Assembly (NCBI GenBank): GCA_937873265.1
Contig: CALMVL010000017.1
Coordinates: forward strand, 1 to 46,535
DNA: 46,535 bases
Direction: 5' to 3'
Origin: an uncultured Granulicella sp.
GTDB lineage: Bacteria > Acidobacteriota > Terriglobia > Terriglobales > Acidobacteriaceae
The notes beneath the pieces are model-generated. The model had not been told where the DNA came from, searched no databases, and saw nothing but the letters and a program-made list of their open reading frames with translations. Within the stretch, counting starts at the first letter, position 1, and each line of letters opens with the position of its first letter. This document shows positions 3,714 to 19,641 of the stretch, piece after piece. Both the position numbers and the translations under genes were made by a program.

Positions 3714-4319
3714 TTAGAGGCTGTCCTTGCCGGGTGTGAGCACCGCGAGAATGGCGTCCGCGACGGACGCGGGGTCAAGCTCGGCCGTGTTGACGGTGTG
3801 GCGGGCGAGGCGGCGATACAAGGGCTGGCGCTCGGCGAAGCGGAGCTGGGCGACGGCGGGGTCGGCGAGGACGGGCCGAGGCAAGTTCTGCAGCATGCAC
3901 CGGTCGAAGAGGGTGGGGAAGGGAGCGTCGAGGAAGAAGACGACGGTGCCGGGGGTTTGTTCCAGCAGAAGGCGGTTGGTGAGGGTTTCGGGAGCGCCGC
4001 CACCGAGGGCAAGGATGGTTTCGGTTCGGCGCAGGGCGGCGGCGAGGGCGGTGGATTCGAGACGGCGGAAGCCGCGCTCGCCTTCGCGCTCGAAGAGTTC
4101 GGGGACGGTGGCTCCGGTGCGGTCTTCGATGGAGCGGTCGAGGTCGAGGAAGCTCCATCCGAGACGCTCCGCCAAGAGCGCGCCGACGGTGGATTTGCCG
4201 ACGCCCATGAAGCCGGTGAGGACGAGACGGCGGGTCGCGGTGGTGAGCAGCGGTTTGCTGGGGGGTACGGTAGCGGTGGTGAGAGGGGTTGGCAGAGCGG
4301 CGGCGAATGCAGTGGACAT
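3714..4319 (-). CDS. aroK: Shikimate kinase
   Basis: LTGFMGVGKSTVGALLAERLGWSFLDLDRSIE...LALGGGAPE...: shikimate kinase Walker A and substrate-binding motifs; GAGGT ribosome-binding site upstream. Confidence 0.95.
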   Translation of the reverse strand: MSTAFAAALPTPLTTATVPPSKPLLTTATRRLVLTGFMGVGKSTVGALLAERLGWSFLDLDRSIEDRTGATVPELFEREGERGFRRLESTALAAALRRTETILALGGGAPETLTNRLLLEQTPGTVVFFLDAPFPTLFDRCMLQNLPRPVLADPAVAQLRFAERQPLYRRLARHTVNTAELDPASVADAILAVLTPGKDSL

Positions 4320-4356
4320 CGGGTTGACCTCAGCTTGGCTTCCGGCTACAGATGGG

Positions 4357-4388
4357 AAAAGAAAAGCCGCGACCTGGGGGTCGCGGCT
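4357..4388 (-). terminator. Intrinsic terminator / putative attenuator upstream of aroK
   Basis: Minus-strand RNA AGCCGCGACC-CCCA-GGTCGCGGCT (perfect 10-bp stem) immediately followed by TTTCTTTTCCC; lies between the leader ORF and the aroK start codon. Confidence 0.8.
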
Positions 4389-4413
4389 CGGGGGTCCTGT
4401 GGATCTCTGTCGA

Positions 4414-4497
4414 TCAGAGCTGCACGCACGACCACCTCGCCGCTGGTTGCCACCAGTAGCAGTAGGTAAATCGCGCGGTGTGACGGTACATGAGCAT
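4414..4497 (-). CDS. Putative aromatic-rich leader peptide MLMYRHTARFTYCYWWQPAARWSCVQL (alternative start at 4491)
   Basis: Hand translation of minus strand; aromatic cluster FTYCYWW; AGG ribosome-binding-like motif 6 nt before the second ATG; ends upstream of a terminator hairpin that precedes aroK. Confidence 0.65.
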   Translation of the reverse strand: MLMYRHTARFTYCYWWQPAARWSCVQL

Positions 4498-4507
4498 CCT
4501 GAGTGAG

Positions 4508-4536
4508 AGAGTATCGGGTTCGGCTGCGGCTGGCAA
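4508..4536 (-). promoter_or_regulatory. Candidate sigma-70-type promoter for leader-aroK
   Basis: Minus strand TTGCCA (4536..4531) - 17 nt - TACTCT (4513..4508), just upstream of the leader ORF; the -10 box is weak. Confidence 0.3.
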
Positions 4537-4562: not shown

Positions 4563-4850
4563 TTATGGTTCATCGCCGGCCGCGGCGATCTTGAGTTTGC
4601 CCTGGATGCTGTTCCAGACGGCGTCGCTCGGCTCGGCTTGGGCTGGTTCGAGCAGGCTCCGTGCGGCTTCAGCGATGTACTCGAGGTCGCGCACGAGGGC
4701 GGCGCAGTCCGGGTGATGGTTCAGGAAACTGGAGAAGGCGGGATCATCACTGATCCGCCCATTGTGGGTGGCAAAGAGCTCGGGCAGGTGCTCCTCAAAC
4801 TGAGAGGGCGTCATGGTGTTCAGGTCGAGAGATGCCCCGCCGTCGTTCAT
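4563..4850 (-). CDS. Small putative soluble anti-sigma factor-like protein
   Basis: Start codon overlaps the sigma-factor stop (ATGA at 4847-4850); [12 protein letters not shown]...[22 protein letters not shown]...[14 protein letters not shown], resembling the helical part of anti-sigma factors; no TM helix. Confidence 0.55.
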
Positions 4851-5503
4851 TGCACCGCCTCCTTGAGCTCTGGCAGATGTTCGGTCTGCCGGAGAAGTTC
4901 GCGCAGCTTCAGGCGAGCCTTGTGCAGCTGCGACTTGCTGTTGCCGGTGGAGCACTCGAGCATGGTTGCAATCTCGTTGTGCTCAAAGCCTTCCACGTCA
5001 TGGAGAACAAAGACCATGCGGTAGCCAGGGGGAAGGGAACCGACAGCGCGTTCGAGCGCGACGCGGTCGACCGAGCCCGAGAGCTGCGGGTCGCGGCTGC
5101 CGAAGTCGCGTTTCGGGGCGTCCTCCTCGGAGGGGTTGATGGTCTCTTCGAGCGAGACCAGCTGCAGACCCTTCTTGCGCAGGTGCATGAGGACGAGGTT
5201 GACGGTAAGCCGATGGAGCCAGGTGGAGAAAGCAGACTCACCGCGGAAAGAGCCGATTTTGCGAAACAGGTGGAGAAAGGCTTCCTGCGTCATGTCTTCG
5301 GCTTCGGAGACGTTACCGAGCATGCGCAAGCAAAGCGTGTAGACCCGCCGCTTATGGAGCGCGTACAGCTTCGAGAACGCTTCTGCGTCGCCGTTCTTTG
5401 CGCTTTCAATCGCTTCCGCTTCGCCGACGATGGGAGGATTCCGCTTGAACAAGCCGGGAGAGGGTTTTGTTTGCGTCATAGATGGTGAGCCTTCGAGATG
5501 CAT
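4847..5503 (-). CDS. RNA polymerase sigma factor, sigma-70/ECF family
   Basis: Region 2 ([70 protein letters not shown]) and region 4 ([48 protein letters not shown]). Confidence 0.95.
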
Positions 5504-17834: not shown

Positions 17835-17959
17835 AGGTCGTTCTCCTGGGACGGGCGTCAGCTCCGGCGACGCTCGAAGTGGATGCCTTCAGGGGCTCCA
17901 GGTGGTAAGTTGCTGGGCCTAAGACCGAGGTTGCCAATTACAGAAAATTCACGACCAAG

Positions 17960-18877
17960 ATGATAGTCCGGCCGAAGATCGCAATTCAAGGGGACCTTGG
18001 GTCGAACAGTCACATGGCCGCGCTCGAGATGCTTCCCGAGGCGGAGATCCGGCCGTGCATCTCGTCGATCGAGGTGGTTGACCGTCTGCTGTCAGGTGAG
18101 GTCGACGGCGCCGTGCTGCCGATTGAGAACAGCCTCCACGGTTCGGTCTCTGAGCATAACGACCTGCTGCTGCGGCATCCGCTTCGCCTCACGCGGGAAA
18201 GCCTTCTGCGCATTCGACACAACGTGATCGTGATTCCCGGGGCTGGTTTCGGGGAAGTCCGCCGCGTTCTGTCGCATCCGGTTGCTCTCTCGCAATGTCG
18301 CGGCTGGCTTGCCGCGCATCCCGAGATGCAGCCTATGCCTTTTTACGACACAGCCGGGAGCGTGAAGCACATTCTGGAGACCGGCTCACGCACCGAGGCA
18401 GCAATCGCGCCTGAACTTGCGGCGCAGATCTATGGAGCGGAGATCCTGGTGCGCGGCATCGAGGATCATACAGAGAATCTCACGCGCTTCCACCTGATCG
18501 TTCGCGACGGGCCAGGCGGCGATGATTTTGGCCTGAACCTGCCGCTTGAGCCCGTGAACAAGATGAGCCTCGCTTTCGCGATCGAGCACCGGCCGGGCAC
18601 ACTGGTTCGCGCTCTCGATGTGCTCGCCGAGGCCGGCGTAAATCTGTCGAAGATCGAGTCGCGTCCCGTTCCCGGCAGCCCATGGCAGTACGTCTTTCAC
18701 CTGGATCTGCGCTTCGACGGTCCGGAACAGGCCGACCGGGCGCTCGCACTGCTTCGGCCAAGGACGAGCATGCTCAAGGAACTCGGCCGATACCAGGCGG
18801 CCGAGACTGCTGCCCCGATGAGCGCCGGGCCCATCTCCGAGCCGATCGAAGACAAGCCGACCGACCGCGAGATCTAG
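17960..18877 (+). CDS. pheA: Prephenate dehydratase with ACT domain
   Basis: IAIQGDLGSNSHMAALEMLPE, VDGAVLPIENSLHGSV, NLTRFHLI, ACT domain RPGTLVRALDVLAEAGVNLSKIESRPVPGSPWQYVFHLDL. Confidence 0.95.
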   Translation: MIVRPKIAIQGDLGSNSHMAALEMLPEAEIRPCISSIEVVDRLLSGEVDGAVLPIENSLHGSVSEHNDLLLRHPLRLTRESLLRIRHNVIVIPGAGFGEVRRVLSHPVALSQCRGWLAAHPEMQPMPFYDTAGSVKHILETGSRTEAAIAPELAAQIYGAEILVRGIEDHTENLTRFHLIVRDGPGGDDFGLNLPLEPVNKMSLAFAIEHRPGTLVRALDVLAEAGVNLSKIESRPVPGSPWQYVFHLDLRFDGPEQADRALALLRPRTSMLKELGRYQAAETAAPMSAGPISEPIEDKPTDREI

Positions 18878-19641
18878 CGCGCCAAAGCCGCCGCGCTGCG
18901 CAGCCGACGTTCCAGGTGCCGCTCGAGGGTCGCGACCGCAAACCGCCGCAGATCCGCGGCGCGCTCCGCCGGCCATGCCTCCGTGGTCAGGTCGCCAATC
19001 ACCTTGCCCAGGGGCGTGCGGAAGATGTGCCACGCTGTTGCTACCGCGTATGCCGATAGGCCCAGGCTGCCGCTACGGCGGTCGTCGCCACAGGTCACGC
19101 CATCGCTCGTGCCGGAGTACCACACGGTTCCGCCGCGTAGATCCAGACCGCAGACGACGCAGTGCCCCAGCTCCGGCATCCAGCCCATCAGACGTATCAT
19201 CCACAGGCAGAAATAGGTGACCGGCAGCCACACCCGGCCTACCTGCATCTGCTCAAGCGTCGCCAGCGCGAGGCGGAACACAGCATCGTCCGCCGCCTGC
19301 TCGGGCAGAGCCTCTTCCAGCACCTCGGCCAGCAGCTCGATGCCAGCGGTGCGCGTGTAGTCTATGGAATCGCGCAGCGGCGACCACTGAATCTCGAAGG
19401 CATCGAGCCGCACCAGTTCCTGTTTTGGCCGCTCGGCGTAGGTGGCACGCACATGCGTCATCGGCTCGAGCGCTCCTCCGAAGCGCCGCCGCGATCGCAT
19501 CGCATGTCGTGCGACTCCCTTGATGCGTCCCTGCTCGCGCGTGAACAGGCTGACCAGCAGATCCGCTTCCTGGAAGGGCCATGTGCGCAGCACCAGAGCC
19601 TCGCCTACGTGCTGGATCAGTCGTCCTTCAGTCCCTGCCAC
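18874..19641 (-). CDS. recO: DNA repair protein RecO
   Basis: EALVLRTWPFQEADLLVSLFTREQGRIKGVARHAMRSRRRFGGALEP; CVVCG zinc motif. Confidence 0.95.
   Translation of the reverse strand: MAGTEGRLIQHVGEALVLRTWPFQEADLLVSLFTREQGRIKGVARHAMRSRRRFGGALEPMTHVRATYAERPKQELVRLDAFEIQWSPLRDSIDYTRTAGIELLAEVLEEALPEQAADDAVFRLALATLEQMQVGRVWLPVTYFCLWMIRLMGWMPELGHCVVCGLDLRGGTVWYSGTSDGVTCGDDRRSGSLGLSAYAVATAWHIFRTPLGKVIGDLTTEAWPAERAADLRRFAVATLERHLERRLRSAAALAR

Follow-up and report, generated by a model that had tools for sequence, protein, structure and literature searches.

Leader-peptide attenuation is textbook knowledge for single amino acids in Proteobacteria and Actinobacteria. In E. coli, the trpL and pheL leaders each respond to a single amino acid, and their translation begins at a normal ribosome-binding site. 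Leaderless leader ORFs, in which a short ORF is translated with little or no 5'UTR, occur in Actinobacteria, at trpE of S. venezuelae and in mycobacteria. The S. venezuelae trpE attenuator is named in PMC4833913, and the mycobacterial leaderless small ORFs are in PMC4633059. Leader-peptide attenuation of the shikimate pathway has been described for the AroR leader of the aroF (DAHP synthase) operon in C. glutamicum; Neshat et al. (2014) reported that this leader contains Phe-Tyr-Phe and responds to Phe, not Tyr, and no Trp codons were described (PMC11802643). The uORFC-13-1 motif, reported only upstream of aroF in Acholeplasma, is a predicted attenuator in which a uORF with an RBS and one or more Phe codons, the residue emphasized in the report, precedes a terminator (PMC8632094). 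Predicted tyrA-associated attenuators in the Merino database are computed terminator/antiterminator pairs before aromatic operons, as here; the passages on them in PMC1173090, which cites the database, describe no Acidobacteria, aroK or mixed Phe/Tyr/Trp leader.

We analyzed a stretch of 46,535 nucleotides from an uncultured Granulicella sp. (the window), for which an earlier note, made without database searches, had proposed an aromatic amino-acid attenuator ahead of the shikimate kinase gene aroK. The features of this locus are as follows.

4508..4536, minus strand: probable leader promoter, with -35 TTGCCA (4536-4531), a 17-nt spacer and -10 TACTCT (4513-4508); by consensus only, the transcription start being unmapped.
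4498..4501, minus strand: inferred transcription start, which would leave a 5'UTR of about 3-4 nt without a Shine-Dalgarno sequence if +1 lies 7 nt after the -10.
4414..4497, minus strand: leader ORF, MLMYRHTARFTYCYWWQPAARWSCVQL, with ATG at 4497 and stop codon TGA at 4416-4414; read directly from the sequence and supported by conservation.
4450..4470, minus strand: sensor codons TTT ACC TAC TGC TAC TGG TGG (F-T-Y-C-Y-W-W), from conservation across aroK leaders.
4452..4460, minus strand: segment 1, GCTACTGGT, the Tyr-Trp codons, pairing with segment 2 by covariation across 58 leaders.
4439..4447, minus strand: segment 2, ACCAGCGGC, whose GCGGC (4443-4439) can also pair with GCCGC of the terminator 5' arm as an antiterminator.
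4405..4419, minus strand: small hairpin CTCTG (4419-4415), ATCGA, CAGAG (4409-4405), overlapping the leader stop codon, from covariation in the genus.
4379..4388, minus strand: segment 3, the terminator 5' arm, AGCCGCGACC, from hairpin search and alignment.
4357..4374, minus strand: segment 4, the terminator 3' arm, GGTCGCGGCT (4374-4365), with the T tract TTTCTTTT (4364-4357), from hairpin search and covariation.
4327..4331, minus strand: GAGGT ribosome-binding site of aroK, by direct reading, with equivalent GGAG-type sites in relatives.
3714..4319, minus strand: aroK, shikimate kinase, the gene inferred to be controlled (Pfam SKI, E 2.3e-39).

Direct reading of the minus strand gave the same aromatic-rich peptide with the run FTYCYWW that the earlier note had placed at 4497-4414. 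The perfect GC hairpin with a CCCA loop that it described was found independently by a separate search (4388-4365, followed by the T tract), and its GAGGT and aroK ATG (4319) also stand, the latter backed by the Pfam match. No antiterminator had been named; one exists, formed by the GCGGC of segment 2 with the GCCGC of the terminator arm. The aroK element shares with trpL-trp and pheL-pheA of E. coli an end-product-codon leader, alternative 1:2, 2:3 and 3:4 pairings, and an intrinsic terminator (PMC11802643), but it differs in having all three aromatic codons, a gene of the shared pathway as its target, and an apparently near-leaderless start. AroR differs from it in phylum and target, and uORFC-13-1 is without shikimate-kinase, trp or chorismate-mutase targets; both were compared by published description only. 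The leaderless leader ORFs of Actinobacteria have the same short, near-leaderless form but are unrelated in phylum, amino acids and sequence, and no alignment comparison was made.

When ATG-started ORFs of 12-50 aa with at least 5 aromatics in 7 residues were sought in the window, only the leader was found, its nested starts giving two counts. Such an ORF turned up in 3 of 60 dinucleotide shuffles of the window (about 0.05 per window), so the aromatic run alone is only suggestive and comparative evidence has to decide. We searched for AroK in 60 genomes of the window's GTDB genus and analyzed the upstream DNA of 49 loci, window included; one match coincides with 'Acidobacteriales bacterium 59-55' (order Terriglobales, Acidobacteriota). 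A contig search with AroK returned mostly distant phyla, and only one close relative was taken from it. At all 49 genus loci, aroK is preceded by a terminator and, before that, a short leader ORF containing Phe, Tyr and Trp codons; F, Y and W were all found in the core of each of these leaders and of 26/26 other aroK leaders. The core reads F-[ST]-x-x-Y-W, with the variants FSYWY, FSYYRW, FTYCFW and FSSQFSDRGYWW. On the 3' side of the core, the RNA is conserved while the reading frame differs by lineage (MTL-stop versus ISENT-stop), which indicates that the peptide core is constrained separately from the RNA segments. In 166 leaders, the ATG frame was open to segment 2 without exception, compared with stops in 115 and 75 leaders for the other two frames. 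Aromatic residues made up 33% of the ATG frame versus 4% and 10% of the others, and peaked 6-24 nt ahead of segment 2.

The promoter was recognized by comparison only; a stricter sigma-70 scan of the window did not list it at its threshold. A TTGC(A/C)A-17-TGTA/TACNNT arrangement lies 8-10 nt 5' of the leader ATG in nearly all relatives (TTGCAA-17-TGTANNNT in the genus), and the promoter score was at least 7/12 at 43 of the 49 genus aroK loci. The 5'UTR implied by this arrangement is mostly 1-5 nt, with a wider spread in aroF and some aroK loci, and no SD-like motif was found before the leader ORF at any of the 49 genus aroK loci. Because the implied 5'UTR is so short and without a Shine-Dalgarno sequence, the leader ORF is probably leaderless or nearly so. 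Leaderless genes have been predicted to account for 10-19% of genes in Acidobacteria (PMC3160421).

Whole-leader folding alone was uninformative (MFE z-score -0.97, with 30/200 shuffles as good), and the structural evidence comes from comparison of individual pairings. The 1:2 hairpin of the window is GCTaCTGGT-ggca-ACCAGcGGC. More generally, Arg-Tyr-Trp codons (CCGCTAYTGG) pair with CCARTAGCGG, and two-sided changes occur in seven of these ten pairs. Over 58 leaders, 1:2 and 3:4 together had two-sided changes in 14 pairs and 51 cells, compared to 6.2 and 12.5, respectively, in shuffles (0/500), and the signal collapsed when the pairing partners were slid. The changes follow the codons. Tyr codons TAC and TAT in segment 1 are matched by G and A, respectively, in segment 2, and in one leader (L181) TTC replaces TAC while GAAG replaces GTAG opposite it. 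In another (L155), the Trp codon TGG has become TCC (Ser) and its partner CCA has become GGA, such that pairing is kept while specificity changes. The comparisons that the earlier note had proposed, for a short ORF with Tyr, Trp and Phe codons in related genomes, a synonymous substitution pattern, and a conserved hairpin with its T tract, thus came out in its favor: the three residues are kept at all 49 genus loci, the TAC/TAT changes are accompanied by changes of the pairing base, and the terminator hairpin not only persists with its T tract but covaries.

The antiterminator required a different kind of evidence. Each pair of GCGGC:GCCGC was complementary in 54-58 of the 58 leaders, and because these sequences are near-invariant there is no column covariation for 2:3. 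Own segment 2:3 duplexes were, however, more stable than swapped ones in 166 leaders (z=-11.3, 0/2000; relatedness uncontrolled), although the difference was not significant within trpB leaders alone. Own arms likewise beat swapped arms for 1:2 and 3:4, with a weaker 1:2 signal in the window's genus. The small hairpin at the leader stop codon (CTCTGA:TCAGAG) had 83% of cells paired and 4 pairs with two-sided changes in the genus alignment (A1 columns 101-138) but was not kept in other genera. It is perhaps a pause hairpin or an inner antiterminator stem; no role has been established.

The effect of a ribosome on these pairings was computed by masked folding, in which transcripts were cut before segment 4 and the nucleotides from -16 to +11 around the A-site codon, the assumed ribosome footprint, were held single-stranded at equilibrium. 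In the window, the probability of 2:3 pairing was 0.00 for the free leader, 0.99-1.00 with the A site on Phe10 through Trp15, and about 0.00 from Trp16 onward and at the stop codon. W16, the second Trp codon, is too close to segment 2, and a stall there would not relieve termination in the model. For 166 leaders, the mean probability was 0.40 without a ribosome and 0.87-0.93 when the ribosome stalled 12-24 nt before segment 2; for stalls at 9 nt it was 0.79 and at 6 nt 0.13, a sharp edge that depends on the assumed footprint. Equilibrium folding already allows 2:3 pairing in some of the unmasked leaders. The best core stall exceeded the free state in 122/166 leaders and the stop-codon position in 133/166. 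For the genus aroK set with the ribosome on the last Trp, the probability was raised in 24 of 49 leaders and lowered in 14. In 106 of 166 leaders, 9 nt separate the end of the last Trp (or aromatic) codon from the GCGGC of segment 2.

We built a covariance model (R1) from the 49 genus leaders and then a second model (R2). By Pfam assignment of the downstream genes, the matches preceded aroK, trpB, aroF (DAHP synthase) and chorismate mutase genes, a wider range than the single aroK site proposed in the earlier note, and one that includes trpB-trpA-aroF-tyrA operons. R1 recovered copies in other genera, and in the window's own genome a second copy before trpB (G000:C170:2974-3056; L164 975-1050), in which most letters of the leader ORF are N and the peptide is unreadable. 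Six trpB loci were read further and contained trpB-trpA, chorismate mutase in places, aroF, and tyrA where the stretch reached it; since the operon includes aroF, tyrA and in places chorismate mutase, the trpB leaders carry Phe and Tyr besides Trp. R2 matched 41/41 genus genomes, 154/300 family genomes (36/79 genera) and 112/200 order genomes. In the phylum scan it matched six genomes of other families, all six times before aroF or chorismate-mutase genes and with aromatic leaders. Because only the few best-placed candidates of each genome are scored in these scans, a missing match carries no weight as evidence, and the false-positive rate was judged from the phylum scan only. Third R2 hits in genus genomes (L222-L225, E 2e-4 to 2e-3) had no aromatic leader and were rejected as false. 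Two of these weak hits (L222 432-572 and L225 373-647), each in a different genus genome, lie near rnhB-like (RNase HII) genes and have terminator-like hairpins only. In an AT-rich member of the phylum (L214 417-570), an aromatic leader (QYFYFYYFYLK) is apparently separated from aroF by two terminators in tandem. Among the classified loci of family genomes (L138-L290), trpB is mostly the second site where a genome has an aroK leader, although no systematic count was made; other genera show a leader before aroF or chorismate mutase alone, which would fit a shift in where the common pathway is controlled.

Codon content tracked the target. Phe was in the core of every leader. Trp was in the core of 75/75 aroK, 45/45 trpB and 23/30 aroF leaders but 0/15 chorismate-mutase leaders (Fisher p about 4e-15, without correction of relatedness; seven genera supply the 16 chorismate-mutase leaders). 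One chorismate-mutase leader outside the 15 (L215, with no segment 2 found) has a Trp. Two chorismate mutase-prephenate dehydratase (CM-PDT) fusions have a Phe-only core, RRFFVFSFR. Some operons that begin with chorismate mutase also contain aroF, and the codon match is therefore with the first gene and not with every gene of the operon. This correlation is an observation, as are the anatomy, the conservation and the base-pair covariation, and the mixed Tyr/Trp/Phe sensor that the earlier note inferred for aroK is what it favors. It also bears on the strongest alternative, that the nascent F-[ST]-x-x-Y-W peptide itself arrests the ribosome in response to a free amino acid or other ligand, in the manner of TnaC, and not for lack of charged tRNA. 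The core, written F-[ST]-x-[RC]-Y-W, keeps its order and spacing well, which speaks for arrest; however, order, spacing and identity do vary among the core variants given above, and loss of Trp before chorismate mutase and a Phe-only core before CM-PDT fusions are explained by codon sensing and not by a sequence-specific arrest peptide. We regard arrest as improbable.

The genes upstream suggest another alternative. Directly upstream of the leader (4563-5503, minus strand) are an ECF sigma factor gene and then a small gene, possibly an anti-sigma gene, with no Pfam match. The terminator could merely end that operon, or serve a housekeeping purpose, with the leader ORF a chance or unrelated small gene; both genes end just upstream in the window, where such a terminator would suit them. 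The two genes are each found at 34-35 of 50 related aroK loci, the sigma gene at only 35, yet promoter, leader, segment 2 and terminator stay together as one conserved unit, which also stands before trpB, aroF and chorismate-mutase genes. A chance ORF is excluded by the frame statistics and covariation, and we give this explanation almost no weight. Elsewhere in the window, a prephenate dehydratase (pheA-like) gene at about 17930-18900 (plus strand) has no visible aromatic leader upstream. Equally hard to credit is a protein- or metabolite-binding RNA (riboswitch or T-box-like) with an incidental ORF that need not be translated, for although RNA conservation in the genus extends over the segments 3' of the core, where the frame shifts between lineages, the frame is open to segment 2 in every leader, codon content follows the target gene, and Rfam families including Trp_leader, Leu_leader, His_leader, Phe_leader and T-box gave no match in the window or six related loci (best leader score, Leu_leader at 17.2 bits against a gathering score of 50).

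The element meets every testable defining feature of a trpL/pheL-type attenuator, namely leader codons, 1:2, 2:3 and 3:4 pairings, and a computed switch. The attenuator reading of the earlier note is upheld by the conserved ORF, the covarying hairpin, the antiterminator and the switch in ribosome-masked folding, and we are highly confident that this is ribosome-mediated attenuation of transcription with a mixed Phe/Tyr/Trp sensor; the element is best read as a new family of such attenuators. Its function is inferred: no expression, Ribo-seq, 5'-end or termination data stand behind leader translation, ribosome stalling, termination or the starvation response. Transcription would start a few nucleotides before the leader ORF, judging from the conserved promoter pattern, and the ORF would be translated from its putative near-leaderless start. 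With plentiful charged tRNA-Phe, -Tyr and -Trp, the ribosome would pass the F-T-Y-C-Y-W-W codons, segment 2 would be covered or re-paired with segment 1, and the 3:4 terminator would stop transcription before aroK. A shortage of any one of these charged tRNAs would make the ribosome stall on the core codons and hold segment 1; GCGGC of segment 2 would then pair with GCCGC of segment 3, no terminator would form, and aroK would be transcribed. One aroK leader would in this way be an OR gate for the shared shikimate pathway. Before trpB-trpA-(CM)-aroF-tyrA operons, aroF and chorismate mutase in Acidobacteriota, the codons of the same attenuator appear to have been adjusted to the branch.

We found no description of this element in the literature on attenuation or leader peptides with aroK or Acidobacteria, subscription papers not being covered; the earlier note likewise knew of no shikimate-kinase attenuator of this design. 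With the same limit on coverage, neither Rfam nor the literature yielded a three-aromatic leader, or any such element in Acidobacteriota or before shikimate kinase.

On a broader scale, we think it likely that the aromatic pathway of Acidobacteriota is, as a whole, under an attenuation regulon made up of a single structural family of near-leaderless leader peptides. Its codons would be tuned to the target (Phe, Tyr and Trp for aroK and trpBA-aroF-tyrA; Phe and Tyr for chorismate mutase; Phe for CM-PDT fusions), each leader would respond, as an OR gate, to whichever amino acids its genes serve, and in different lineages the common pathway's valve would have moved between aroK and aroF. The leader adds a conserved, unannotated small ORF to Acidobacteriota genomes. 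The series of leaders is a natural experiment on change of attenuator specificity, in which codons follow the target and compensating base changes keep the switch, and the attenuator may give a testable explanation for the control of aromatic biosynthesis in these abundant, hard-to-grow soil bacteria.
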